Shown here piece by piece: positions 1-45,411 of a stretch of DNA of 45,432 bases (positions within the stretch are counted from its first letter, which is position 1; each line of letters starts with the position of its first letter). Location of the stretch: the IMG/VR virus record IMGVR_UViG_3300025133_000205, positions 1 to 45,432 of that record. The stretch is one strand, 5' to 3'. The notes beneath the pieces are model-generated. The model was given only the letters and a program-made list of their open reading frames with translations, was not told the origin of the DNA and made no database searches. The position numbers were made by a program, and so were the translations under genes. This DNA is from a virus.

Positions 1-604
1 TTATAACTTCGTCTCCGATTTTCACATCAGAAATCTTTTTAAGAGAACCATCTGACATGGCTAACATACTGTTTTTACTCAGCTTTTCACCCATTTTCCA
101 GAACTCCAAGGCTGCTCCGTATACAACAGAGTATAGGTCAATCTTTTCCGCCATTTCCATGAAAAACTGCTGTACTTTTTTATTCTTACATGTAATGTTT
201 ATTTTGCTAATTGGATATGAGGCATGAAGGTTTATTGCGTTTCTAACGATTGGATGTGTATCATAAAACACACGATTCCATGCGTTCATAGTGACGCGAT
301 CTCTAGGTAAGTTTAGATTCGCAAGCTGGAATAATGGAGAATATATCTCTGGAGACATTCTGTCTGAAGAGGCAGAGGTAGTCGGTCCCGGCATGGGAGA
401 AGCTATGGATCCTCTCTTTATAAGATCTATACTTCTTTTTCTAAATCCAGGACTATGAGCTATAGAGCCAGATAGGGTTGAGTTCTCTAGATTGTCCATA
501 TCCTTATTTGCTGCATCGGAAATCTGAGCTCTTCTTACTTCAGATATTGATTCGGCAGACTTTTTAGTCAATACGGTTGGAGGTCGATTTATTCTTCTAG
601 TCAT
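1..604 (-). CDS. Portal protein, N-terminal part, interrupted by an intein (partial at window edge)
   Basis: This is the start of the portal protein, the ring at the capsid vertex through which DNA is packaged. The reading frame begins at ATG 604, 2 bases after the terminase stop in genome order, and stays open to the left edge (about 201 codons). Residues about 95-165 resemble tailed-phage portals: NAWNRVFYDTHPIVRNAI, then a segment ending ALEFWKMGE, the place where relatives read E-[YF]-W-x-x-GE followed by an aromatic strand. Straight after GE the sequence changes to an intein-like block ending KKISDVKIGDEV. The extein therefore appears interrupted and its remainder lies outside the window. 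The portal call comes from remembered family patterns; the adjacent large terminase supports it. Confidence 0.75.
   Translation of the reverse strand, partial: MTRRINRPPTVLTKKSAESISEVRRAQISDAANKDMDNLENSTLSGSIAHSPGFRKRSIDLIKRGSIASPMPGPTTSASSDRMSPEIYSPLFQLANLNLPRDRVTMNAWNRVFYDTHPIVRNAINLHASYPISKINITCKNKKVQQFFMEMAEKIDLYSVVYGAALEFWKMGEKLSKNSMLAMSDGSLKKISDVKIGDEVI
2..82 (-). other. Intein N-terminal block A inside the portal gene
   Basis: Directly after the portal motif WKMGE, the frame reads KLSKNSMLAMSDGS and then KKISDVKIGDEVI. This fits intein block A (nucleophile, hydrophobic, three residues, T/S, then a hydrophobic residue, a DG turn and a GDxV strand). Aligned this way, the first intein residue is Lys instead of Cys or Ser. 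The intein body, any endonuclease domain and the C-terminal splice junction lie beyond the edge. Confidence 0.6.
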
Positions 605-606
605 AA

Positions 607-2379
607 TTATATTCTCCTCTTAACGCTTGCTATCACCGATCTCGGATAATCAGACTGCTTTTTCATGCCTGGTTTAATAGTAAATCCTTCAGTTAAATCA
701 AATTTATATGCCATATAAGCATACATCAGTGCCATAAATCCATCGTTTGGAGAGTTGCCTTTAACATAAGTTTTCATCGGTTGTCCTCCAGATATTCTTA
801 TCTTTGACTCCATAGAAGTGCAGTGCTCTATTAACCACTCAAAATATTCGTAGCTTTTCCATGGAAATCTAATCTTTCCCTTTCTAAACAATTCTATTAA
901 TTCGTCAATTAATAAATCTTTATTATAAGAAATAATTAGCTCATCCTCTCGATATTTAGTGGGATTTATAAGGCTTCCGCTTCCCTGAGCGCCGATGAGC
1001 TTATCTCCATACATTAATTGTAAACTCGCAACAACGTCTTGGCCAAAGAACCAGTCGGAAACTCCTCTAGTTATTCCGAACCTTCTATACATTTCTTTTA
1101 TGGTATCTTTTTTGAATTCAAATGTATTCTTCTTGAGCTTATGAGCATGCTCAATATTTAGCACTCCGTCTTCACCAGCGGAGATAACAACGACACAAGA
1201 GTACGACTGGCCTCCGCTTGAATGGGGATCATCATCTTTTCCGCCCCAGTCAGAGCCAAGATATGTTGGTTTTTCATGATGAGCAATAGATTTTGAAAAA
1301 TATCTATCAGGATCTCTGCATAGCTGATAAATCTCAGCTTTAGTTAGCGGAGCACCAGCTCCAGAGTAAAACTCTCCAAGAGCTTCATTCTTCCAAAGTC
1401 GCTCAGTCTGTGCTGGATTGTTTTCCGGCATTAATTTTTCTATATTTTCTTTAGAAAAATATGGAATATATAGCTGGTTTATATGAAAGCCAACAAAGTC
1501 GCAATCCGTGCCGGGCCTTGTTGATACCCATTTCCCAAGCTCTATGGCCTCTATCTTTTTCTGTTTTGTTCCACAAAGTGGGCACTGAATTGTATTTTCA
1601 TAGAGCCAAATTGATTGCCATCTATTATCTTCCGGAAGATAAAACGGATATGTTTTCTTGCAATTAATGCAGCCCAAATGATAATATCTTTGGTCAGATT
1701 GATTCCAAGTTGTTTCAAAATGAGTATTCTTATTTTTTGGAGTTCCAAAGTAAACTTGAACGCCTTGACCAATTGGGCCATACTTTGCGGCCGTTAAAGT
1801 TTTATTAGCATTACCTATTGCATGCCCCAGCATTTCTTGAAATTCATCATAAACGGCAACATCAACGGTCATACCACGAATTCTATCACCGTCCGAGCCA
1901 AGACTATCTATCCAAAGAGTTCCTGTGTTGAACTGCTTCATGGTTAAATTATCTACCGCATTTGAGCTCATCAGCTTATTTTTGGTGATGAAGTCATCTT
2001 TGGCGGTTCTTATTAAGTTTTCTAATTTGTCTTGGGAGAACTTCTTTACCTGACCTAAGGCTGGAAAAAGGTGAAGAACTCTAATGTTTGGATCTGTAAA
2101 AAGACCGCTATTTGTAAAGTATAAATCAAGAGCGGCAGCCATCATGGTGGCACCGACCTGACGGCCCTTCTTTATGACAACCGGCTTTCCATCTGGCCTG
2201 GTAGCCTGAAGGGCAATGTACCGATATATATCGGACATAAACTTCCAGCCATTATCCAAAACATTGAATTCGGCTCCATCTAAGGTTAGGTTATTTTTTA
2301 CAAAATGAGATGGGTCAAAGTCGAGGAAATTTGTCTTTAGCTGTTCGAATAGGTCTTGTTCACTCTTTTTAGCCGCCAT
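607..2379 (-). CDS. terL: Terminase large subunit (GpA-like ATPase/nuclease)
   Basis: This is the DNA-packaging motor: an N-terminal ATPase pumps DNA through the portal and a C-terminal RNase H-like nuclease cuts concatemers. The Walker A-like motif GRQVGAT is near residue 72 and Walker B VAVYDE near 174. A four-cysteine zinc site (C237, C240, C266, C269) lies between the domains, as in lambda GpA-type terminases. Nuclease acidic residues are seen in LGSDWGG (about 377), GVSDW (about 451) and PNDGFMALMY (about 550). The start is ATG 2379, one base after the upstream stop TAA. A TTG in frame at 2388 would overlap that gene and has no better ribosome site. About 590 residues is normal for the family. 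It lies just upstream of the portal gene, a standard packaging arrangement. Confidence 0.92.
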   Translation of the reverse strand: MAAKKSEQDLFEQLKTNFLDFDPSHFVKNNLTLDGAEFNVLDNGWKFMSDIYRYIALQATRPDGKPVVIKKGRQVGATMMAAALDLYFTNSGLFTDPNIRVLHLFPALGQVKKFSQDKLENLIRTAKDDFITKNKLMSSNAVDNLTMKQFNTGTLWIDSLGSDGDRIRGMTVDVAVYDEFQEMLGHAIGNANKTLTAAKYGPIGQGVQVYFGTPKNKNTHFETTWNQSDQRYYHLGCINCKKTYPFYLPEDNRWQSIWLYENTIQCPLCGTKQKKIEAIELGKWVSTRPGTDCDFVGFHINQLYIPYFSKENIEKLMPENNPAQTERLWKNEALGEFYSGAGAPLTKAEIYQLCRDPDRYFSKSIAHHEKPTYLGSDWGGKDDDPHSSGGQSYSCVVVISAGEDGVLNIEHAHKLKKNTFEFKKDTIKEMYRRFGITRGVSDWFFGQDVVASLQLMYGDKLIGAQGSGSLINPTKYREDELIISYNKDLLIDELIELFRKGKIRFPWKSYEYFEWLIEHCTSMESKIRISGGQPMKTYVKGNSPNDGFMALMYAYMAYKFDLTEGFTIKPGMKKQSDYPRSVIASVKRRI

Positions 2380-2380
2380 T

Positions 2381-2977
2381 TTACCCAATAGAAGGATCTG
2401 CGTGCGATATATATTCCGCTATCTCGTTGGCACTTTCTTCCTCCGAGGAGTCTTCTGGTATATATTTTACTTCGTCTCTAGAGCTTTTATCGCCTATAAT
2501 TTTTTGGACTAAAGCTTTAAACTTTTTATCATCTATTAAGCTTTCAGCTCTTTGAAATTCAAGCGTTGGATGCTGCCGGCAATGTGTCATTATTCCGAGC
2601 AACCCAACGTCACCCCTATCTTTCGCAAAATCTTTTATATAAGTTATGATTGCCTCTAGTAACCTGAAGAGCTCTGAGTTGCACTCTCGACATTTATTTC
2701 TTTCGCAAGAGCATCCTTCGCTTTCAGAAGATGTATCTTTAGCTACCTTCGCTTGCTCCGGATCGCTCATATCTTTTATCAAGTTAAATCCGGCTCTAGT
2801 TTTCATATCTGCCATCTTTTCATCAATACTTGAAAAATCTTGCCGCTTTTTGATAATTGTTTTTAAATTATCTAAATAATCAGCATTCTTTTCTAGGTTT
2901 TTTGAAAAATCATCAAGCCAGCCTGCTTTAGACTCGGAGCTATAATCTTCGGTTATATTTTGTCGATTTATTTTCAT
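2381..2977 (-). CDS. Hypothetical protein, Cys-rich centre, upstream of terL
   Basis: A 198-residue protein I do not recognise. Most of it is charged and predicted helical. The middle holds four cysteines within about 12 residues (GCSCERNKCREC), which could bind a metal. It then reads SELFRLLEAIITYIKDFAKD, followed by a second half with HCRQHPTLEFQ. The acidic C-terminus is rich in Ser and Glu. It sits one base from terL, so it may be co-translated with it. A small-terminase or packaging-accessory role is conceivable from position alone; no motif supports it. Confidence 0.7.
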   Translation of the reverse strand: MKINRQNITEDYSSESKAGWLDDFSKNLEKNADYLDNLKTIIKKRQDFSSIDEKMADMKTRAGFNLIKDMSDPEQAKVAKDTSSESEGCSCERNKCRECNSELFRLLEAIITYIKDFAKDRGDVGLLGIMTHCRQHPTLEFQRAESLIDDKKFKALVQKIIGDKSSRDEVKYIPEDSSEEESANEIAEYISHADPSIG

Positions 2978-4480: not shown

Positions 4481-5257
4481 TTAAATATTATCTAGATAAT
4501 GTTTAACCATCTTTCTTTTTATTAACTCATCTTTGAAGGCTCCAACCATTGGAACCAGAGTTAAAAGGTTTGTTTCTAATAGATATTTAATTGTAATATC
4601 CGAATTAGCATCAAGGGACTTTGCCATAATCGAAGTTATAGCCGCCGGCTTAACAAATAACGATCCATCTAGCTTGAAGTTATCTTTATTTAATTTTATA
4701 TAAGATATTATTTCTTCATCAATTTTAAATCCCAAACGAGCGGCAAAGCTAATTGCACGAAAAGCTCTTCTCGGATCATCGCTGATAGTTATCTCGGATG
4801 GAACGCAAGTTTTTATTATTCCTTCTCTCAGATCATTTAACCCAGCTTCAGTTGGATCATAAAACTCTTTCGTTTCTAGATCTATATGAATAGTGTTTAT
4901 AGTAAAGTCCCTACTATATACTTCATACAAGGACACATCCTTGATATTAAGATTTTTATCTATATACTTAACCGCTCTTTCTGAAATAAAATTGCTAGAA
5001 AAATCAAGAATATATTCGTCAAGATATACGGAAATATGTCCATCCGGAAATAGCCTAAATAGCTCATCAAATGTATATGCGGCGGTTATAGCAAAGCGAG
5101 TTGTGTCGGAGCCGTTGGTAGTTAGGTCTATATCAGAGAGGCCATCGGGCGCTCCCAGCGCCATATCTCTTGGGATTCCGCCAACCAAATATGGTCGAGA
5201 AATATGATTCTCTCTGCAAATAGTCAGAAGTTGACTATAAAGACTTTCTAGCTCCAT
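4481..5257 (-). CDS. tRNA nucleotidyltransferase / poly(A) polymerase head-domain protein
   Basis: This resembles the catalytic head of class II CCA-adding enzymes and bacterial poly(A) polymerases, which add nucleotides to RNA 3' ends. The signature is complete: YLVGGIPRDMALG near residue 23, the metal-binding pair in SDIDLTT near 41, a third carboxylate in YILDFSSN, the motif SRDFTINTI near 128, and RRAFRAISFAARLGF near 174. At 258 residues it is much shorter than cellular CCA enzymes (roughly 380-420) and lacks most of the body and tail that measure the tRNA. It lies between virion-type genes, which is unexpected. Substrate (tRNA, mRNA or something else) cannot be told from the sequence. 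Confidence 0.85.
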   Translation of the reverse strand: MELESLYSQLLTICRENHISRPYLVGGIPRDMALGAPDGLSDIDLTTNGSDTTRFAITAAYTFDELFRLFPDGHISVYLDEYILDFSSNFISERAVKYIDKNLNIKDVSLYEVYSRDFTINTIHIDLETKEFYDPTEAGLNDLREGIIKTCVPSEITISDDPRRAFRAISFAARLGFKIDEEIISYIKLNKDNFKLDGSLFVKPAAITSIMAKSLDANSDITIKYLLETNLLTLVPMVGAFKDELIKRKMVKHYLDNI

Positions 5258-5263
5258 AGAATT

Positions 5264-6865
5264 TTATCCCCCCATTGATTCCGGAGGAGTCTCCGGCTCT
5301 AATTCTGGTGCTTCTTCCACTGTTTCTTCCACGGCTTCTTCAGGCTCTTTGGCGGCAGGCTCTTGAGCCCCAGGCACACCAGCTCTTGAAGCAGCAATGG
5401 CTTTAGCGTTTGCAAGCTGCCCCATCATTTTTGTAACTCTTGTTAGCGCATATGAAAATGAATCAATAAGTTTACTTTGAGACTCTGCTAACTCCGGAAA
5501 CATAGATGCAACACCAAGTTTATCCAACATAATATCAAACTCAGCAAGCTGGCGAATAATTCGTCTATCAGCCAGGAGTCCAGCTACTTCATCTAACTTA
5601 GTAGCTGCATCTTCTAGGTTGATATCTCCCGCTAAAAACTCATACTCTCCAGGCCTCGCCCCAGGAATTGGAACAATATCACGAAGCTTTGCAGCCTCAA
5701 CATCATCTGGCCCAGGAATGTCGTGACCAGAGTCTGACTCAGCGGGCTCTGTATCAGCCTCCACAGGCTCAACGCTAGCCTCCGGGTTGTCCGGCAACTC
5801 TGGGGCTAGAGCTGCCGGCTCTGGAGCCTCAGCACCGGGCAGTGGACCCGGTGCTGCATCGGGGGCCATAGTGGGCTCCGGAACCACCTCTTCCATAGGA
5901 ACTTCTTGAGCTATCTTCCTCAGTATCCCTGCTGCCTCCATAGAGCCGGCACGCTCAAAGGTTGACGCCGTTTTAAAGGTAACATCTGAAAGGGTTCTTG
6001 CTAACTTAATATTCTTTGCAAGAATGCTAAGAGAAACAAGGGCTTCTGCTAATTCTTTGTAATTTTCATGATCAACATATGTATCGGATCTGATGAGCTT
6101 ATCAACTCTCCTTAGTGCTCCATAGAGCTGCTGCTTCCAAGTAATGAATAATTTCTTTTCTTCAACATTTTTTGTAGAACTCTTTGACGCATTATCAAAT
6201 GTATCTCTACGGAAGGAATCTCCAGGCATATTATTGCCAGTATTTTTATCGAGATATGAGCTTCCGCTCCCAGCATAATAAGGATTATTTCCCTGCCCTA
6301 AATCAGATTGGTAAACCGCTTTTTTTTTCATTTTGATCTCCTCTTCAAGACTATATTTTAGATGCTCGCCCGAGCTATAATATTCAAACCACTTATTAAA
6401 TTTACGTCTCTCTTCTTTATCTAAAGAATTACTATAATATTCCAAAGCATTAGCCTTAGACATCTCGTCACTTTCAATTGAAGTATATATCTTGTAAACA
6501 AGGTCTAGCCATTTGCTTATATTATATTCCTCGTCTACCTCTTCTGGTGATAGTCCGGGGCTGGGGTATGCAACCTTTGTTATATCTTTTGAGTCTAGTT
6601 TTGCTTTTGTTATTAAATAATAAGCATCATTTTTGTTTTTGATATCTAAGCTTAATATATTTTTAAAATCACCATCAGATAAACGGGCCCTAATTTCTTT
6701 TGAGGCTTCTTTTACTAAAATATACTTTTTTAATTTTGTATCCGAATCAACCCCTATAGAAGAAAGATATTCGGCCCTCGCAATAAGCATACCAAATTCT
6801 TTGCTCTTCTCTCCAGACGAGAGATTTATAAGCCTTTCATAAAGGTAGTTGTTAACCTTCTTCAT
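5264..6865 (-). CDS. Hypothetical structural-type protein with Pro/Ala/Glu-rich linkers
   Basis: A 533-residue protein of unknown function. The N-terminal 300 residues are helical and charged. A Pro/Ala/Glu-rich linker spans about 320-395, a second helical region about 395-485, and a similar acidic linker forms the C-terminus, ending ESMGG. Just before the first linker is the helix FERAGSMEAAGILRKIAQE. It resembles a short helical motif found twice in the protein at 7877-8872. The start ATG overlaps the stop of the upstream gene (ATGA). A virion or assembly role is likely from position only. Confidence 0.72.
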   Translation of the reverse strand: MKKVNNYLYERLINLSSGEKSKEFGMLIARAEYLSSIGVDSDTKLKKYILVKEASKEIRARLSDGDFKNILSLDIKNKNDAYYLITKAKLDSKDITKVAYPSPGLSPEEVDEEYNISKWLDLVYKIYTSIESDEMSKANALEYYSNSLDKEERRKFNKWFEYYSSGEHLKYSLEEEIKMKKKAVYQSDLGQGNNPYYAGSGSSYLDKNTGNNMPGDSFRRDTFDNASKSSTKNVEEKKLFITWKQQLYGALRRVDKLIRSDTYVDHENYKELAEALVSLSILAKNIKLARTLSDVTFKTASTFERAGSMEAAGILRKIAQEVPMEEVVPEPTMAPDAAPGPLPGAEAPEPAALAPELPDNPEASVEPVEADTEPAESDSGHDIPGPDDVEAAKLRDIVPIPGARPGEYEFLAGDINLEDAATKLDEVAGLLADRRIIRQLAEFDIMLDKLGVASMFPELAESQSKLIDSFSYALTRVTKMMGQLANAKAIAASRAGVPGAQEPAAKEPEEAVEETVEEAPELEPETPPESMGG

Positions 6866-14506: not shown

Positions 14507-16153
14507 TTAATATTTATGTGATAAAGTGCCCTCTTGTGGTGGCCTCCATCCTGCGGGAGCCTGCCAGCTAGAAGGATTCTCAGGCTGCTCAGAAACCACA
14601 GCATCGGTATTTATCAAGAGCAACGATATACTTGTGGCATTTTCCAGGGCAGTTTTTGTAACTTTTGTAGGATCTATCACTCCAGACTCAACCAAATCTT
14701 CGTAAGAGTTTGTGGCAGCATTATATCCATAATTAAAGTTATCCACGCCTAGCACATTGTCTATAATTTTATTGCCATCTTCATAAGCATTAACTGCAAT
14801 CTGATACATAGGCCTCGCACACGCGCCTATAAGTACGCGTGCGGCCGGGACTAGATCCTCTTGTAGCAAGCTTAAGTCAACCTCTTTTGCTGCTCTCAGT
14901 AATGCTGTTCCGCCACCGGGTACATAGCCCTCCTCAATTGCGGCTCTTGTGGCGCAAATTGAGTCCTCAACTCTGTCCCCCTTTTCTCTAAGCTCCAATT
15001 CGGTTGAGTAACCAACAGATATTACTGCTGCTTTATTCTGAATAAAAGCTATGCGCTTCTTAGTATCTAGCCTAGCAGAATCTCCTATCAGCTTACCTAG
15101 ATCTTCGTTATAAATGCGAAGTTTCTCCTCATACCTCACCGGATCCTTATCTCCTTCTAGAATCTTGGTAGAGAATCTATTCACAGACACCCTCTTCGCA
15201 AATCCTAGATCAGATACCGCTGCGTTCTTCAGTGGAACACCACTTTCTTCTGAGAAAACCTTTGTGCCAACAAGAACAGATAGAGCTTCTAACCATTCGC
15301 TCTGAGTCGGCCCAAAGACTGGAAGATTAACTGCAACTGCCCGAAGTCTTCCGAGCTTGTTATTTGCAACCAGTGTTGTTAACACCTCCTGTTTTACGGC
15401 TTTAGCGAGAATAAGAACCGGAACATTATTGTCAGACAACTCATTAAAGAGTCCTAGGCAAGAAGACAAGTTCGCGATCTCGTCATTGCAAATTAGAATT
15501 CTACAATTATTTATTTGAGATTCGGTTTGTCCTTCTTCGGTTAAGAACGCTGGAGTTATAAATCCTGATTCTATTTCAATTCCATCTGTAAACCTAACTG
15601 AGTTCCCAGCTTCGGGGAAAGCCTCAGCTACCACTGTTCCGTCCATCCCTACAGCATGAAAGGCTTCTGCAATTTTATTGCCCAACTCGGAGTCATTGTT
15701 GGCAGAGATGGTTGCAATATTTCTTAAGTCCTCTAGTGAGGAAACCTCAATCGATCTTGTGTTGAGATTCCTGATGATCTCTTTCAGGGCCCACTCTATT
15801 CCTGCTTTAAAATGTAATGGGCTATAATTTGTCTCAATTAAAGCACACCCTTTCTTGAGGATTTCATGAGTAAGCACTGTGGCGGTTGTTGTTCCATCCC
15901 CTGCTATAGCGGCGGTTCTTCCTGCCACCTCTTTGATCATCTGACAGGCAAGCTCCTCAACCGGATCTTCTAAGGTAATCTCTCTGGCTACCGTAACTCC
16001 ATCCTTAGTGAGAACTGGCGCTCCCACAAACTTTCCGAGAATTACATTCTTTCCTTGAGGCCCCATTGTTACTGCGACAACTTTTGCTAACTTCTCTGAT
16101 CCGGAGAGGATTTTAGCTCTAGCATTATTTTTAAAAGTTATATCTTTAGCCAT
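14507..16153 (-). CDS. groEL: GroEL-type chaperonin
   Basis: A full-length group I chaperonin of 548 residues, the usual family size. It begins MAKDITFKNNARAKILSG and carries the nucleotide-binding sequences VAVTMGPQGKNVILGK (about 27) and GDGTTTATVLTHEIL (about 85). The C-terminal half has EDSICATRAAIEEGYVPGGG (about 405-425), which includes the position of the catalytic Asp near 398 in E. coli. The usual Gly-Gly-Met tail is replaced by a Pro/Trp-rich end. It would fold proteins in a double ring. No co-chaperonin (GroES) is seen in the window, so it may use the host's, another gene elsewhere, or work without one, as reported for phage EL. The start overlaps the RuvC-like gene by 8 bases. Confidence 0.96.
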   Translation of the reverse strand: MAKDITFKNNARAKILSGSEKLAKVVAVTMGPQGKNVILGKFVGAPVLTKDGVTVAREITLEDPVEELACQMIKEVAGRTAAIAGDGTTTATVLTHEILKKGCALIETNYSPLHFKAGIEWALKEIIRNLNTRSIEVSSLEDLRNIATISANNDSELGNKIAEAFHAVGMDGTVVAEAFPEAGNSVRFTDGIEIESGFITPAFLTEEGQTESQINNCRILICNDEIANLSSCLGLFNELSDNNVPVLILAKAVKQEVLTTLVANNKLGRLRAVAVNLPVFGPTQSEWLEALSVLVGTKVFSEESGVPLKNAAVSDLGFAKRVSVNRFSTKILEGDKDPVRYEEKLRIYNEDLGKLIGDSARLDTKKRIAFIQNKAAVISVGYSTELELREKGDRVEDSICATRAAIEEGYVPGGGTALLRAAKEVDLSLLQEDLVPAARVLIGACARPMYQIAVNAYEDGNKIIDNVLGVDNFNYGYNAATNSYEDLVESGVIDPTKVTKTALENATSISLLLINTDAVVSEQPENPSSWQAPAGWRPPQEGTLSHKY

Positions 16154-18367: not shown

Positions 18368-18879
18368 CGTTTGAGCCTCCTAACTGACGCGCCCGGACTT
18401 CTTACCCCACTTTCTTTGGCTAACCGCTTTAGCCTTTCAATCTTCAGATCTGCGTCTAAAGCCTCTGGTAATAGATCTTTGTTCTTCTTTAAGATTTCCT
18501 TGCGAACCTGCTCTCTTATGTCCTCATAAGACTCTTCGGTCGCAGCAGCCTCAGTGCTCGCCGCTGGAGGCCCCTCCTTCGCCTCTGTGGCCTGCGGCTC
18601 TGCACCTTCGGCTCCTGGCTCGCCTTCCTCGGAGGGAGCCTTAGCGACGACGTCAGGGGGGAAGAACTCTATCAGCATAAATAGCGCTATATCAAAAAGA
18701 TCATCAGCTACAAGCTTTTCCGAAAATGGCTGATTAGAAAGCTTCTGACGAAGCAGATCTAAGCGCCGACTATGTAGATTCCCCAATAGGGCTCCACCAC
18801 ATGCCGGACAACAGTTTTTCATAAGAGAATGTCTCATCGAGTGTTGAACTTCGAAGTTACAGTTTCTACAATTCATCAT
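18364..18879 (-). CDS. Hypothetical protein with N-terminal zinc finger
   Basis: A 171-residue protein. The first 30 residues contain CRNCNF and CCPACGG, a probable zinc ribbon, preceding a helical segment LHSRRLDLLRQKLSNQPFSE. An Ala/Glu/Pro-rich linker (about 80-115) separates it from a Lys-rich C-terminal helix ending SVRRLKR. The start overlaps the DnaE stop (ATGATGA). Zinc ribbon plus basic tail suggests nucleic-acid or polymerase binding; nothing more specific is supported. Confidence 0.7.
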   Translation of the reverse strand: MMNCRNCNFEVQHSMRHSLMKNCCPACGGALLGNLHSRRLDLLRQKLSNQPFSEKLVADDLFDIALFMLIEFFPPDVVAKAPSEEGEPGAEGAEPQATEAKEGPPAASTEAAATEESYEDIREQVRKEILKKNKDLLPEALDADLKIERLKRLAKESGVRSPGASVRRLKR

Positions 18880-21800
18880 AATGATTTCCCGTAAACCCTC
18901 TCAAGGCTTGAGAGGGCTAAGTCTTTTTGGTCCAAATAACTATTTACTTTGCAAATCGCCTTGATTGGCGTTCCATCTTTTAGGATTGCCTTATATCTTT
19001 CGTAATCATCAGCCCAAAGCGTCATACCACAAGTGTCTCCATTGACATCCTCTACTAAGTATTTTGCAAATTTCTTCCCTACATTTTTACCATTTTTGAT
19101 CTTAAATTCCTTAATTTTTGTTTTAATTATTGCTTCTATTTTTAGCCTAACTCCTTCTGATTGAATCTTGACATCAGAAAGCTGAGTTACCATCGGCCCG
19201 CCAGTAAAGAAGCTCTTGAACACTTCATGTAAACTTCCTGACAACGAGCGGCCCATAACCTCTCTTTCGTTAAGAAGAATCTCTTTTCTATCCCATTCGT
19301 CAGCGTTTGTCGTAAAGGCTGTAGCTGCTACAATTTCTGAGAATCTACTTGAGTCGGCCGGAATGTTATACTCCTCAAGCAGCAACTCAAAATTATCTTT
19401 TGAAACCTTTTTCCAGGCAGGATTGTCGGCAAGAATTTTCTTTTCTATAGTCTTCTTTACTGCCGTCCTTGCTTTGGACCTGTACTTTTGATAGTTATCA
19501 TGCATATCTTTTCTTGACAACTCAAAGCAATCCATTGCTCCAGACTTCGACAGTGACTCAAGGACTATTTTTCCAACCGTTCTGCTGTTGTTTTTTGAAA
19601 CAAATTCTCCAAAACTAGCATATGGTTTATTTTCAAGAATGCTCTCGATAGCCTTTTCTCCGACACCCTTTACTGCAGAAAGTCCGGTGATAATCGCTCC
19701 GTCCTCTCCTATTGCATAGGGCCCAATAGACTTATTAACATCTGGATGCGTAATATCTATTTCCATATTCTTGCACTCAGATATATATTCCTGCGTCTTA
19801 TCGCTATTCGGATCTTCTGAGTTTATCAGAGCGCACATAAACTCTGTTGGATAATGATGGCGAAGCCACGCGGTATAAAAAGATATTTTAGAATAAGAGA
19901 TAGAGTGAGACTTGTTGAAACTATATTTTCCAAGAGGAAGTATAAAGTCTCTCCATATTAAAGTAGCAGTTTTGTGGGTCATATTGCTATAGTCCATGCA
20001 GTCTTTTATGAATGCCGCCTCAGTTCTGAGAACCATATCCTTGTCTTTCCCCTTTAGTTTGCTGATTTTGCGAAGAGCATCTGCCTGATTTAGATCCCAC
20101 CCGGCGCAATCCTGAGCGATAAACATCGCCTGTTCCTCATAAACTAGCACCCCATAGGTGGTCTTTAGTGCTCGCTCTAGCTTTGGGTGCTCATAGTCAA
20201 ATTCCCCCTTTCCAAGACGTCTCTTTATATACTTCTTTCTTGCCTCAGGAAGACAAGACGGCCTACCCAATGCGTTAATATCAGATATATCTCCAATAAC
20301 TTTAGGCTTTATCTTTATGCATAGGGGCGTTAGCGATGACTCAAGCTGAAACACTCCTGACGTTTCTCCCCGCCCAAGCATATCATATACTTCTTGGTCA
20401 TTTAAATCGATGTTATCGGTTGTAAGGCTTTTTCCAGTTGTCAAGCTTATAAGTTTAAAGGCATTATCGATCACCGTCAGTGTCTTGACACCCAAAAGAT
20501 CCATCTTTATAAGGCCATTATCTTCACATCTAGTTTTTTCCCACTGGGTGACGGTGTTTCCATCTTTGTCAATTCTCAATGGAATAGTCTCATACAGCGG
20601 ATCTTCGCCAATAACTATGCCAGCAGCATGGACAGACCAGTTTCGAGTTAGATTCTGGAGCTTATTGCCATATTCGTAAAGTTCGGGATACTTTTTCATA
20701 AGCTGAGAAAATTGAGGACTATCTTCTACGGCCTCTTCTAAAGTTTTTGCGTCAGGCATTATAGATGTAATATAATTTGAAATCTTAAATGCTTGAGATT
20801 TATCACCACCCAAACGAAGGCTTCTTGCTACGTCCTTGATGACGACCTTTGGAGACAGAGTGCTCCAGTTAGAAATCGATGCAACCTTATCATTTCCATA
20901 TTTTTCTTTAATATATTCCTTGACAACGCCGGGATCTGAGAAATCCGTATCTATATCTGGGAATGATTTCTTTTGATTATTGTGAAATCTCTCAAAGATC
21001 AAATCATATTCGATTGGATCTACATCGGTGATTCCAGTTAAATATGCAACCAAACTTCCAGACGCCGATCCTCTTCCAGGCCCAACAGGCATCCTTTTTT
21101 TCGCCCAATTTATGTAGTCAGAAACGATGAGCATATAAGACGAGAAGTTCTTCTCCTCCAACACTCCGAGTTCAACCTTTACTCTATCCCAATAGAGTTC
21201 TTTTTTCTCATTATCAAACTCTGCTGCTTTCTTTTTAAATCCATCAATACATCGGTACCTTAGGAGTGCTTTATCCTCCGAAACTGTAGACCCAGTTTTC
21301 TCATACCACAAAGAAAAGGCATCATAATCTGGTTCGTTTTTAACCGGAAAAGTCGGAAGTCTTGCGCCCTTTGGCTTAATATAGTGTGGTTCATCACAAG
21401 CATTCATGATCTTGATTGTATTTTCCATGCCTTTGCTGGCGATTTTATTGCCAAAGAAATCAACAATTTCACTTGAAGCCTTTAAATACATGTCCTGTAC
21501 ACCATATCGGAATCTATCAGGATCATTAACAGCCTTTTTATCTTTGATTGCTAACATAAAATCGTGATACTTTGCGTGTTCTTTATCTCGATAGTGAGCA
21601 TCACAAGTTATTACATACGGAATACCAAGGTCGCCTGAGATTCTCAGGAGAGACTCATTAAGCTTTACTTGATTAACTTCTGTTCCGTTTTTATTTGTTG
21701 CCTGCAAAGCGTGCGGCTGCAACTCAAGAAAGAATCGATCATTAAATATTGAATGGAACCGATTGATGTACTCTATGGCCAACTTCTCATCTTGCTCGGT

Positions 21801-22247
21801 TATAAGGGTCTTTGCGACAAGACCATTGCAACAAGCTGTAAGTGCGAAAACACCTTCATTATATTTCTCGATATGCTCCCAGGAAATTCTCGGAACTCTT
21901 TTTCCCATGTATCCAGAAACTTGATTTTGAAAAGCTAAGTAATTTAGTCTTAAGATATTTTTATATCCTGTCTCATTTTTAGCCAACAAAACAAGATGGT
22001 GGTTCTTTTTCTCCGAGAGATCATCCGCAAAATACGCTTCCATACCGGGAATAAACTTTATGCCAGTTTCTTGGCTTGCGAGATAGGCGTCATAGGTGGC
22101 AGTCAGTGTTCCGTGATCTGTCACGGCTACTGCTGGATGCCCAATCTCTTTGGCTCTCTTAAATAAATCTAAAGTGTCGTTCATTCCGTCGAGCGGGCTT
22201 CCCAGCTCTGTATGATTATGAAGCGATACGAATGGGCCTTTTGACAT
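18876..22247 (-). CDS. dnaE: DNA polymerase III alpha subunit (DnaE)
   Basis: The phage replicative polymerase, of bacterial family C type, 1123 residues and near the size of cellular DnaE. The PHP domain comes first (SLHNHTELGSPLDG, then VTDHGTLTA, MEAYFADD and CDAHY). Catalytic Asp residues are in PDIDTDFSD (432, 434) and GLIKMDLLGVKTL (about 583). Later parts show YGVLVYEEQAMFIAQDCAGW, KYSFNKSHSISYSKISFYTA, a helix-hairpin-helix (LSAVKGVGEKAIESIL) and a C-terminal OB-like region. I chose ATG 22247 because AAGGAG lies 6 bases upstream; an in-frame codon 33 bases earlier lies inside the terminator. No separate proofreading exonuclease was recognised here, so the PHP domain or the host may supply it. 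Confidence 0.96.
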   Translation of the reverse strand: MSKGPFVSLHNHTELGSPLDGMNDTLDLFKRAKEIGHPAVAVTDHGTLTATYDAYLASQETGIKFIPGMEAYFADDLSEKKNHHLVLLAKNETGYKNILRLNYLAFQNQVSGYMGKRVPRISWEHIEKYNEGVFALTACCNGLVAKTLITEQDEKLAIEYINRFHSIFNDRFFLELQPHALQATNKNGTEVNQVKLNESLLRISGDLGIPYVITCDAHYRDKEHAKYHDFMLAIKDKKAVNDPDRFRYGVQDMYLKASSEIVDFFGNKIASKGMENTIKIMNACDEPHYIKPKGARLPTFPVKNEPDYDAFSLWYEKTGSTVSEDKALLRYRCIDGFKKKAAEFDNEKKELYWDRVKVELGVLEEKNFSSYMLIVSDYINWAKKRMPVGPGRGSASGSLVAYLTGITDVDPIEYDLIFERFHNNQKKSFPDIDTDFSDPGVVKEYIKEKYGNDKVASISNWSTLSPKVVIKDVARSLRLGGDKSQAFKISNYITSIMPDAKTLEEAVEDSPQFSQLMKKYPELYEYGNKLQNLTRNWSVHAAGIVIGEDPLYETIPLRIDKDGNTVTQWEKTRCEDNGLIKMDLLGVKTLTVIDNAFKLISLTTGKSLTTDNIDLNDQEVYDMLGRGETSGVFQLESSLTPLCIKIKPKVIGDISDINALGRPSCLPEARKKYIKRRLGKGEFDYEHPKLERALKTTYGVLVYEEQAMFIAQDCAGWDLNQADALRKISKLKGKDKDMVLRTEAAFIKDCMDYSNMTHKTATLIWRDFILPLGKYSFNKSHSISYSKISFYTAWLRHHYPTEFMCALINSEDPNSDKTQEYISECKNMEIDITHPDVNKSIGPYAIGEDGAIITGLSAVKGVGEKAIESILENKPYASFGEFVSKNNSRTVGKIVLESLSKSGAMDCFELSRKDMHDNYQKYRSKARTAVKKTIEKKILADNPAWKKVSKDNFELLLEEYNIPADSSRFSEIVAATAFTTNADEWDRKEILLNEREVMGRSLSGSLHEVFKSFFTGGPMVTQLSDVKIQSEGVRLKIEAIIKTKIKEFKIKNGKNVGKKFAKYLVEDVNGDTCGMTLWADDYERYKAILKDGTPIKAICKVNSYLDQKDLALSSLERVYGKSL

Positions 22248-22260
22248 TTTTCTCCTTAAA

Positions 22261-22298
22261 AATAGGTGTAGCGGACGCAATGGCCCGCTACACCTATT
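22261..22298 (-). terminator. Rho-independent terminator before dnaE
   Basis: A perfect 14-bp inverted repeat (AATAGGTGTAGCGG and its complement) with a 10-base loop. The minus-strand copy is followed by TTTTT and then the AAGGAG ribosome site of dnaE. It would stop transcription coming from the 98-residue gene, so dnaE depends either on read-through or on a promoter I could not place. Confidence 0.88.
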
Positions 22299-30392: not shown

Positions 30393-31157
30393 TTAGATTA
30401 GATCTTCTAATATATCACTTATAATCTTATTAGACTTTATCTTCTTGAGCCGCATACTTGCGGCCCACCCGGTGATGCCAACGTGCCTTGCTGCATCACC
30501 AATCGAAAATCCTTCCAAGCAAACCATCTTAAGTATAGTTTGAGTCTTTGGGTCAACCTGACCTCCAAGCCTCTCTATTGCCATGTTTAAGTGTACTTCA
30601 TCATATGGAGACTTATTTGATGAAAACATTCCGTCTGTTGATGAGAGTGATGATTCAAAATCAAGATACTCTTCTCCGTCAGACTGGCTTCTCTTTGGCA
30701 TTAAGCTAAAGAGAAGCTCCTCTCTTGAGCCTCTATAGACTGGTCCATATTTATTTCCACATTCTTTGCAGATGTTCTCCTTCCCCTTTTCCGAAAAGAT
30801 TCCACCACATGAGCAAATACTTTTTGTCTTCTCTTCTGATAGTCCATATGCATCATTCGATAATTTGTTTATACTTTTTAATTTTGATATTAATTTATTT
30901 TTTAAATGATTATGCAAAAAGGAACTCAGCTTTACCTTTTTATCTGGATCAAAAGCATTTATTCCTTCTATGATTATAACGGAAAGCTCTTGCTTAATGT
31001 CATCAAATCCATATCCGGACATATAAGTCCGAGAGGCCCACTTGCACAAAAGAGGATCTATCTTTTTTAGTACTTTGCCGTATCCCTCTTTTGTTTTTGT
31101 GTTAACGAAAATCTTCTCATCATACATCTCAACAAACTGCTCATATTCTTTTGCCAT
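30393..31157 (-). CDS. Sigma-70 family factor with an inserted zinc ribbon
   Basis: A 254-residue phage sigma factor that would steer host RNA polymerase. Region 2-like sequence is at about 30-95 (YGFDDIKQELSVIIIEGINA, then KVKLSSFLHNHLKNKL). Region 4 is at about 200-245 (LKMVCLEGFSIGDAARHVGI, then MRLKKIKSNKI). Between them lies a zinc ribbon (CSCGG and CKECG, about 113-137), which is unusual for sigma factors. The closest functional analogy is the late sigma gp55 of T4-like phages, but I cannot show homology. AAGGAA precedes ATG 31157. It is upstream of the two large unknown genes. Confidence 0.85.
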   Translation of the reverse strand: MAKEYEQFVEMYDEKIFVNTKTKEGYGKVLKKIDPLLCKWASRTYMSGYGFDDIKQELSVIIIEGINAFDPDKKVKLSSFLHNHLKNKLISKLKSINKLSNDAYGLSEEKTKSICSCGGIFSEKGKENICKECGNKYGPVYRGSREELLFSLMPKRSQSDGEEYLDFESSLSSTDGMFSSNKSPYDEVHLNMAIERLGGQVDPKTQTILKMVCLEGFSIGDAARHVGITGWAASMRLKKIKSNKIISDILEDLI

Positions 31158-36131: not shown

Positions 36132-36667
36132 ACGCCTGGATACCTCCGCTTTAAAATCTGCTTTAATTTTTTCTGTACCTCTCTAGCGCCAATAACATCT
36201 TTACGATCTAGTAGGGTCAACTTTAAATCCATTTTTTTAATCAAAAGACCAATCCACTCTAGATCATCTTGATGATTTGTCTGCGCTTTTCTAATTTCAG
36301 TAGAGATTTCCAGCAAGACCGAGAAATTGTTTTGCTTATTTTCTGCGGCGCAAACCTTAACTTTGGATGGATCAACTACCTTTGACAGGTCTTCCAAGGC
36401 CTCCGAAAAGCTTTTCTCTGTGCAAAGCATGTAAAAATCTATAACGTTATTTGAGGCCCCACATCCAAAACAATAAAAATTATTATTGATATTATCAATA
36501 TATAGCGAACCAGTTCTCTCCAATCCAGACTTATGATCTACGGCAGGACACTTACACTTATGCGTAAAGTTGCCGCTGTTAGTCTCGATCATAGAGACTC
36601 CCTGACTACTTGCTATATCAGAAATCCTCAGAGAAGATAATATCTCTTTTTTAGAAAAACGTCTCAA
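36128..36667 (-). CDS. Separate DnaG-type zinc-binding domain protein
   Basis: A 179-residue protein whose first 90 residues match the CHC2 zinc-binding domain of DnaG: FTHKCKCPAVDHKSG (about 33-47), then FYCFGCGASNNVIDFYM (about 64-80). In cellular primases this module recognises the template trinucleotide and precedes the TOPRIM core, which here is in a distant gene (11467-12228). The C-terminal half is helical and unknown. The start codon is TTG 36667, overlapping the FtsK-like stop as TTGA. I infer the two act together as a split primase. Confidence 0.85.
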   Translation of the reverse strand: MRRFSKKEILSSLRISDIASSQGVSMIETNSGNFTHKCKCPAVDHKSGLERTGSLYIDNINNNFYCFGCGASNNVIDFYMLCTEKSFSEALEDLSKVVDPSKVKVCAAENKQNNFSVLLEISTEIRKAQTNHQDDLEWIGLLIKKMDLKLTLLDRKDVIGAREVQKKLKQILKRRYPGV

Positions 36668-37755
36668 AACAAAATCCTCTCCCAGAGTGGGCGTATCTTC
36701 CTTTTAACACCCAAGTTATCTAGCTCTGTATCAATGTCAATAATATTTGGGGCCCTAAATAATTTAGGCTCTGATAATGTTCCGTCCAAATATAGCCCAG
36801 TTCCAATATCAGATATCTTTTCTGCTCCACCGGTGTCCAATATAATCCTGCTATCTACTGCAGATGCAACTTTTAGAGCAATTCTTGCTGGAAAGTTTGC
36901 CTTCATTAAGCCGGATATAACGGTTGCTGACGGCCTCTGGGTCGCCAGAATTATAGATATACCTGCGGCACGGCCCTTCTGAGCCAACAAACATAGCTTC
37001 TTTTGTATCAACTTATCTTGCAAGGTTAGATCTGCCCACTCATCAATAACTAAGACAATTGGCTCCATAAATGTTTTTCGCTTTGCTTTCGCGTTATATT
37101 CCTTTGCACTTCTTGTTTTTGATCGCTGCAAGAAAACAAAACGCTCTTCCATTATTTTGGTGATATCTTCTATTATATCTGTAGCCTCTTCTGCTGAATG
37201 CACAATTCTCCTTACAGAGGAGACTCCCTTGTAGCAAGAGAACTCGACCATCTTTGGATCTATAAGGTAGATGATTGAGTCGCCACCAATTAGTGACAAT
37301 ATAAAGTTATGCAATAGCACGCTCTTCCCTGAGCCAGTAGTTCCCCCTATTAGAATGTTTGGCATCTTATTAAGATCTAAACTTATAGTGTTTCCGTGTG
37401 CGTCAACGCCGAGGGCCACAGGAACATAGTGCTCCCTATTTAAGGTCTGATACGTTTCTGCAAAGGATGGCGATGGAATCTGCCGAGTCTGTATATGAAG
37501 TCTATACACTCCGCTGTTCATTGCCGTAAAGCCAGTCGGATAAGAGTAAGCTCTGAGGGCAGTGCCCAAGTCCCTTAGAGAGCGATCTATCTTTAGAGAG
37601 CTCTCTCCCTGCTTTAATGATATATCATATATATCGATATATTCTTTTTCCTCTAAAAAAACGGAGTCAACCTTTATTTTAAACGCAGTAAGCAGGCTCT
37701 TTAAATTATCTTCTTTTGTTTTCTCGAAAATTTGGACCCGGTTCTCTTCCGACAT
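36664..37755 (-). CDS. FtsK/SpoIIIE-like DNA translocase ATPase
   Basis: A 363-residue motor ATPase. Walker A is ILIGGTTGSGKSVLLHNF (about 136-153), followed by IIYLIDPKMVEFSCY, Walker B EPIVLVIDEWADL (about 227) and the conserved ILATQRPSATVISGLMKANF (about 265). This order is diagnostic for FtsK/SpoIIIE. It lacks the membrane part and the DNA-reading gamma domain of bacterial FtsK. The terminase does packaging here, so this one may move or segregate DNA, clear replication intermediates or act in a conjugative-like step; the sequence does not say which. GGAGG precedes ATG 37755, which lies inside the upstream gene. Confidence 0.93.
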   Translation of the reverse strand: MSEENRVQIFEKTKEDNLKSLLTAFKIKVDSVFLEEKEYIDIYDISLKQGESSLKIDRSLRDLGTALRAYSYPTGFTAMNSGVYRLHIQTRQIPSPSFAETYQTLNREHYVPVALGVDAHGNTISLDLNKMPNILIGGTTGSGKSVLLHNFILSLIGGDSIIYLIDPKMVEFSCYKGVSSVRRIVHSAEEATDIIEDITKIMEERFVFLQRSKTRSAKEYNAKAKRKTFMEPIVLVIDEWADLTLQDKLIQKKLCLLAQKGRAAGISIILATQRPSATVISGLMKANFPARIALKVASAVDSRIILDTGGAEKISDIGTGLYLDGTLSEPKLFRAPNIIDIDTELDNLGVKRKIRPLWERILF

Positions 37756-44771: not shown

Positions 44772-45380
44772 TTAACCTTTCAATAGAAACAGAAGCTTTT
44801 CCTTATCTGCATCCGAAGCAGCCTCAAAGACTGCTTCAATATTTCCGAAGCCTTGATCATTCTTGACCTTATAATCAATGATGAAGCTTAGATTCTTATA
44901 GAGAATATTGTGGATATACTTGCTGGTAGCAGCAGCATAAACAGCAGCTTCAGCAGCACAAGCCGCAGTAGCAGCTTCAGCGGCAGCATAATAAGCAGCA
45001 GCACAAGTAGCAGCTTCAGCGGCAGCATAATAAGCACAAGTAGCAGCTTCAGCAGAATAAGCAGCAGCTTCAGCAGCACAAACAGCAGCATAAGCAGCAG
45101 CACAAGTAGCAGCTTCAGCAGAATAAGCAGCAGCATAAGCAGCTTCAGCAGCACAAGCAGCAGCATAAACAGCATCAGCAGCAGCATAAACAGCATCAGC
45201 AGCATCAGCATCAGCAGGATTCCTCAGCCATGCTTCAGCAGTTTCGATTGCTTTCAAAGGTCGTTTATCCTTCGGATACACCTTCTCAAAGAGAGGCAGA
45301 ACTTCTCTTGCAAAGATGCAAGCAACCCAAGCGGACAGAGGCTTGTCGAGTCTTAAGTCTTTAACGGATAAGAGGCTCAT
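44772..45380 (-). CDS. Alanine-rich tandem-repeat protein
   Basis: A 202-residue protein with a normal N-terminal 50 residues (LSAWVACIFAREVLPLFEKV, then AIETAEAWLRNP) and a C-terminal 50 residues (LSFIIDYKVKNDQGFGNIEA). The middle 100 residues are repeats built from AAEAATCAAAYAA-like units with regularly spaced Tyr, Cys and Glu. The AWLRNPADADAADAVYAAAD type of sequence recurs in phage and bacterial proteins annotated as immunity-like; I am not certain of that link. I chose ATG 45380; TTG 45389 is an in-frame alternative. Confidence 0.72.
   Translation of the reverse strand: MSLLSVKDLRLDKPLSAWVACIFAREVLPLFEKVYPKDKRPLKAIETAEAWLRNPADADAADAVYAAADAVYAAACAAEAAYAAAYSAEAATCAAAYAAVCAAEAAAYSAEAATCAYYAAAEAATCAAAYYAAAEAATAACAAEAAVYAAATSKYIHNILYKNLSFIIDYKVKNDQGFGNIEAVFEAASDADKEKLLFLLKG
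44924..45211 (-). repeat. Degenerate GCA-type tandem repeat inside the Ala-rich gene
   Basis: The plus strand shows repeated AGCAGCTTCAGCAG and AGCAGCATAAGCAG-type blocks for about 290 bases, in frame with (A)nE and (A)nY units of the protein. The mix of 3-base slippage and longer block copies suggests expansion and contraction by recombination. Confidence 0.85.
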
Positions 45381-45411
45381 TGTCTTCAACTATCAACAGA
45401 TATCTAAATCT

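Follow-up and report, generated by a model that had tools for sequence, protein, structure and literature searches.

In class 2 inteins, Cys+1 attacks the N-terminal splice junction directly, a route for which Thr B:7, His B:10, and Asp F:4 are required (PMC4031507). Described members of this class are orthologs of the KlbA intein, carry Ala1 and Ser G:6, and have a single origin in archaeal KlbA genes (PMC4031507, PMC3196547), and a review from 2020 likewise refers to class 2 as alanine inteins and presents KlbA as their typical example (PMC7765530). Mycobacteriophage inteins, those in portal genes included, belong to class 1 or class 3 (PMC5050341), and no report of an intein with Lys1 or Arg1 was found in the open-access literature. 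Here, we analyzed a 45,432-nucleotide stretch of viral DNA (IMG/VR record IMGVR_UViG_3300025133_000205, positions 1 to 45,432, referred to as the window), in which the portal gene is interrupted by an intein with Lys at position 1. This intein and its relatives most likely splice actively through the class 2 route of direct Cys+1 attack; their lineage is distinct from that of KlbA, and their position-1 chemistry would be new. All of the following were read from sequence: the insertion with its boundaries, the clade and its conserved active-site residues, the absence of the Trp-Cys-Thr (WCT) triad of class 3, the endonuclease domain, and the transfer between portal backgrounds. Block numbering follows the conventions quoted by PMC4031507 and PMC3196547.

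An intein with Lys at position 1 in a phage portal gene

The portal open reading frame (ORF) of the window lies on the minus strand, starts at position 604, and leaves the contig at its left end (position 2). It consists of the following parts:

86..604, minus strand: N-extein, the first 173 portal residues, ending ...LEFWKMGE; matched by PHROG portal families, the phage G portal, and 67 related loci
2..85, minus strand: start of the intein, 28 residues of block A (KLSKNSMLAMSDGSLKKISDVKIGDEVI), truncated where the window stops; same as positions 5520-5603 of the related contig L005
83..85, minus strand: Lys codon AAG at position 1 of the intein, which is Cys, Ser, or Thr in class 1 inteins

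The PHROG portal family match (E=1.1e-11) is aligned up to residue 173, and portal families reach residues 173-176; the N-terminal portal part is 37% identical to the portal of Bacillus phage G. Taken alone, the intein fragment has a weak similarity to Hint domains (Pfam Hom_end_hint, E=0.053). Since the window contains only 28 intein residues, the remainder was read in L005, a contig of 113 kb, and in L002; where either contig overlaps with the ORF of the window, the sequences are identical. L005 covers the complete gene, with the portal, an insertion of 405 amino acids at L005:5520-6734, the C-terminal junction HN/CFPYAELDENQG, and the remaining portal. The intein of these near-identical contigs reads, with both junctions, E/KLSKNSM…MYDIEVEDDHSYVANGIAVHN/CFPYAEL and thus ends in His-Asn followed by Cys+1. 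Excision of the 405 residues yields an unbroken portal as in the empty alleles (WKMGE/...HN/CFPYAEL versus WKMGE-A-FPYAEL). A search with the portal fragment returned the 67 related loci, and in most of these portals the query match ends at residue 173-175 and is directly followed by FPYAEL, i.e., they are insertion-free. As most portals run straight from WKMGE to FPYAEL, the boundaries of the insertion are clean and place Lys at position 1 and Cys at +1.

A Hint fold with blocks A, B, F, and G is present (matches to PF14890 and TIGR01443; structure models), and the similarity is not due to chance, because L002 and L005 continue into a complete intein of 405 amino acids, after which the portal resumes. 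The L005 intein additionally contains a LAGLIDADG endonuclease domain (PF14528, E=9.6e-15), which full-length members carry. An AlphaFold model of the L005 precursor (pLDDT 85) had the inteins PI-SceI (Sce VMA) and TliVMA as top matches in the PDB, and also matched I-DmoI. PI-SceI and TliVMA share the combination of Hint splicing domain and LAGLIDADG endonuclease but differ in being class 1 inteins with Cys1, at about 14% identity.

Judged by these sequences, an intein interrupts the portal gene between WKxGE and FPYAEL. The original prediction, made from the window alone, had placed an intein behind WKMGE with Lys instead of the N-terminal nucleophile. Both points are borne out by the two junctions in L005 and by the AAG codon at 85..83, with Lys also in relatives, and the proposed look beyond the window end recovered blocks B, F, and G and the resumption of the portal after His-Asn. 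The intein start that it gave as 2-82 is real; this span omitted the Lys codon at 85..83, and the minus strand went unmentioned.

A lineage without Cys1 at the same portal site

Relatives were collected by searches with intein alignments and junction patterns. Based on sequence alignment, seven distinct inteins at this site have no nucleophile at position 1, which is Lys in five cases (AAA or AAG), Arg in one (CGG), and Ala in one. Cys1 is present in nearly all of about 100 other inteins with readable junctions from the same searches, and the few apparent exceptions are offset or frameshifted starts. The Lys/Arg/Ala1 inteins found beside that of L005, and further inteins at the site, are:

L153: Lys1, 51% identity to the L005 intein
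L154: Lys1, 49% identity to the L005 intein; found again as L269 in another metagenome
L155: Arg1, 33% identity to the L005 intein
L266: Lys1, 51% identity to the L005 intein
L270: Lys1, mini-intein of 183 amino acids without endonuclease (L270:11838-12386)
L273: Ala1, internal deletion in the endonuclease, splicing blocks intact
L074, L075, L078: Cys1 inteins at the identical insertion site
L073: C-terminal half only

Lys1 occurs in five further contigs and in two portal backgrounds. The Cys, Ser, or Thr that characterizes position 1 of class 1 inteins is thus replaced throughout by Lys, Arg (L155), or Ala (L273), a conservation across a diverged lineage that the original prediction did not foresee. 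In a tree of the splicing domain, from which position 1 was excluded, the seven inteins form one clade (96/98) that is sister (98/77) to the same-site Cys1 inteins and nested among Cys1 inteins; these support values are rough because the bootstrap had not fully settled. The simplest reading of the tree is that Cys1 was lost once at this portal site. The same-site class 1 inteins share the insertion point, the LAGLIDADG domain, and the HN/C end with the clade, whereas they differ in Cys1, in Asn at F:4, and in the absence of a C-x4-C-x13-C-x2-C cluster.

Among isolate phages, only weak and distant intein matches and no close relative were found, and the genome contigs searched gave only distant inteins, with Cys1 wherever junctions were readable. 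A search for Arg1 at the portal site recovered only L155; the other matches inspected comprised Ser alleles lacking the intein and an unrelated protein.

Splicing residues and evidence for activity

The L005 intein has Ser70 at B:7, His73 at B:10, Met75 at B:12, Asp387 at F:4, and His394 at F:13, and at its C-terminus Val403 (G:5), His404 (G:6), and Asn405 (G:7), followed by Cys at +1. Ser/Thr B:7, His B:10, Asp F:4, His F:13, His G:6, Asn G:7, and Cys+1 are invariant in the clade, and reading frames and splice residues are intact at identities down to 33-52%. Every splicing residue is also kept in L270 and L273, in which the endonuclease is lost and damaged, respectively. This speaks for splicing, since a dead insert would gain nothing from keeping them. 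In agreement with this, dN/dS of the splicing domain is 0.25 for L153/L154, and for the remaining pairs dS is saturated or greatly exceeds dN; the ratios indicate that the splicing domain is under purifying selection. The model of the L270 precursor shows a complete intein fold (pLDDT 79) with a Foldseek TM-score of 0.82 (target-normalised) to the gp41-1 intein.

Cys+1 was found in 12 of 12 distinct occupied alleles with readable junction and in 2 of 52 distinct empty alleles (otherwise Ala in 28, Val in 14, Ser in 6, and Thr in 2), a count that ignores shared ancestry and the co-conversion of flanks during homing. The intein-free portals of L059 and L064 read GE-C-FPYAEL in place of the usual Ala, Val, or Ser; their Cys+1 is possibly a scar of past intein occupancy. 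Overall, these data suggest that the Lys/Arg/Ala1 portal inteins most likely still splice. Besides the limits of the Cys+1 count, two comparisons with known inteins weigh against this conclusion or the class 2-like route. Splicing of tested class 1 inteins is blocked when the N-terminal nucleophile is replaced by a residue other than Ser, Thr, or Cys (PMC3196547), so a compensation would be needed here. Moreover, the class 2 inteins named in PMC4031507 all have Ala1 and Ser G:6, while the inteins studied here have mostly Lys1 or Arg1, together with His G:6.

A further feature of the whole clade is a zinc-ribbon-like cluster of four Cys residues (C-x4-C-x13-C-x2-C), which begins 12 residues after His B:10, spans residues 12 to 34 after it in L270, and has altered spacing in L155. 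The cluster is probably a metal site. It is kept in the endonuclease-free mini-intein of L270, which suggests a role in folding or splicing control rather than in DNA cutting.

Proposed mechanism and alternative explanations

Position 1 is non-nucleophilic in every full-length member, and Ser/Thr B:7, His B:10, Asp F:4, and Cys+1 are all present; this combination is the residue pattern of class 2. With no nucleophile at position 1 or at F:4, Cys+1 is the best-placed nucleophile. Because the same-site Cys1 inteins have Asn at F:4, Asp F:4 accompanies the loss of Cys1 in this comparison; Asp F:4 also occurs in a few distant Cys1 inteins. We infer that splicing occurs, and also the order of its chemical steps and any contribution of a basic side chain at position 1. 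The Glu(-1)-Lys1 peptide bond would be activated by Ser/Thr B:7, His B:10, and Asp F:4 and attacked directly by Cys+1, giving the block G branched intermediate. Asn405 would then cyclise with the help of His404, and an S-to-N shift would ligate WKMGE to CFPYAEL. The endonuclease would home the intein into empty portal alleles. The bond may be polarised, or the site opened, with the help of the conserved basic residue that occupies position 1.

The portal inteins are hence predicted to work like class 2 without being members of the KlbA family. They share with the KlbA intein of Methanococcus jannaschii and its orthologs the non-nucleophilic position 1, Cys+1, His B:10, Asp F:4, Ser/Thr B:7, and the absence of WCT. 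They differ in having Lys or Arg (in one case Ala) with His G:6 in phage portal genes, as opposed to Ala1 with Ser G:6, and, unlike KlbA inteins, they are most closely related to phage class 1 inteins that occupy the same site. In a profile search of solved structures, KlbA was not among the best matches at E<=1. A more far-reaching interpretation, which we regard as possible but rather doubtful, is that this phage lineage is active and independently lost the nucleophile in favor of Lys/Arg. The -1/1 bond might then be activated for Cys+1 by the basic side chain, or an internal Cys might act first, which would make for a new mechanistic class.

The second of these routes can be specified. An internal residue such as Cys85 could attack the N-terminal junction first and hand the N-extein over to Cys+1, in a class 3-like pathway with two branched intermediates and another nucleophile. 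Cys85, located 12 residues after His B:10 within the four-Cys cluster, does not vary among the seven distinct Lys/Arg/Ala members, and the retention of the cluster in L270 implies that it does not serve DNA cutting only. However, the spacing of the cluster resembles a zinc-binding cluster, and Cys85 lies outside known catalytic positions. Many Cys1 inteins, too, have Cys-rich clusters starting 10-12 residues after His B:10, which is why Cys85 ranks low as a replacement nucleophile and why we consider this pathway improbable. The chance of a class 3 mechanism is smaller still, in fact negligible, even though a non-nucleophilic position 1 and a phage host are shared with many class 3 inteins, such as those of mycobacteriophage Bethlehem DnaB and MchDnaB1. 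The WCT triad (Trp B:12, Cys F:4, Thr G:5), which the original prediction had proposed for this intein and named as a check, was sought in L005 and every relative and is absent: B:12 is Met, Ile, or Val, F:4 is Asp rather than Cys, and G:5 is Val or Ile in every member. Class 3 is thereby refuted by sequence.

It might also be argued that the insertions no longer splice, being decayed or capable of C-terminal cleavage only, and that the phage copes with a portal protein that is broken or enlarged. The death of tested class 1 inteins upon loss of the N-terminal nucleophile and a documented splicing-dead intein pseudogene (PMC3196547) are in line with this. We give this explanation little weight, as the portal is essential and the insertion lies within a conserved motif, and it is at odds with the intact frames and splice residues across 33-52% identity, the selection of Cys+1 in occupied alleles, the retention of all splicing residues in the two members with lost or damaged endonuclease, and the low dN/dS. 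Finally, since the window ends 28 codons into the intein, Lys1 could be a sequencing or assembly error, or the boundary could be misplaced and another residue be position 1. This is very unlikely: Lys1 recurs in separate metagenomes and in diverged sequences, alongside Arg and Ala variants, a change from Lys to Cys needs at least two base changes, and any other intein start would leave extra or missing residues relative to the empty alleles. Direct attack by Cys+1 remains the preferred explanation.

Mobility, portal intein sites, and genomic context

The intein of L004 differs from the L005 intein at 1 of 1157 nucleotides, while the L004 N-extein differs at 104 of 519 nucleotides, and in L072 a third portal background contains the C-terminal portion of this intein. 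We read this pattern as the signature of recent homing. Portal inteins were found at no fewer than four sites, i.e., at least at NAW^, WKxGE^, LRE^, and near TYASS (L007:5001-7136, L019, L030, L064, L072, L074, L153, L154, L155), and several portals of this phage family hold two inteins, making the portal an intein hot spot. Near the TYASSS motif, L007 (5001-7136), L008, and L063 have an intein of about 160 amino acids without endonuclease domain, and L019, L030, and L072 have longer, LAGLIDADG-sized inteins at that place. Portal inteins, which the original prediction called less common, are not particularly unusual, given these sites and the portal (PORT) inteins of mycobacteriophages (PMC5050341), which likewise reside in a phage portal gene, in different phages and a different portal family.

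The window is a linear virus record without host genome and belongs to a large uncultured phage from a lineage of jumbo phages to which Bacillus phage G is related. The portal gene is immediately preceded by the gene for the large terminase subunit, the usual packaging-gene context. Other genes in the window are:

607..2388, minus strand: terminase large subunit (PF05876, E=7.7e-15; phrog_675, E=4.3e-65)
4481-5257, minus strand: poly(A) polymerase/tRNA nucleotidyltransferase head domain
14507-16153, minus strand: cpn60-type chaperonin (E=7.2e-56)
18876-22280, minus strand: DNA polymerase III alpha subunit
30393-31157, minus strand: sigma-70 region 2 protein
36664-37755, minus strand: FtsK/SpoIIIE-like ATPase
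44772-45389, minus strand: low-complexity ORF with a long Ala-rich repeat run (AAEAAY/ACAAEAA-type)

The window has no end repeats that would point to circularity, and joining its ends does not carry the intein on. A search of the window's own genome for the intein returned the same fragment only, and no RNA families or tRNAs were found in the window.

Significance

As the Cys1 and the Lys/Arg/Ala1 inteins are sister clades at one site, they allow a direct comparison of the loss of the first nucleophile and of what compensates for it, and the natural Lys1 mini-intein of L270, with 183 amino acids, is small enough for an assay and for structure determination. If it splices, it might provide a tool that is unable to form the linear N-terminal thioester. 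The class 2-type shortcut has so far been described for one archaeal gene only (PMC4031507, PMC3196547); if the L270 intein splices, nucleophile-free splicing of this kind would have arisen twice.
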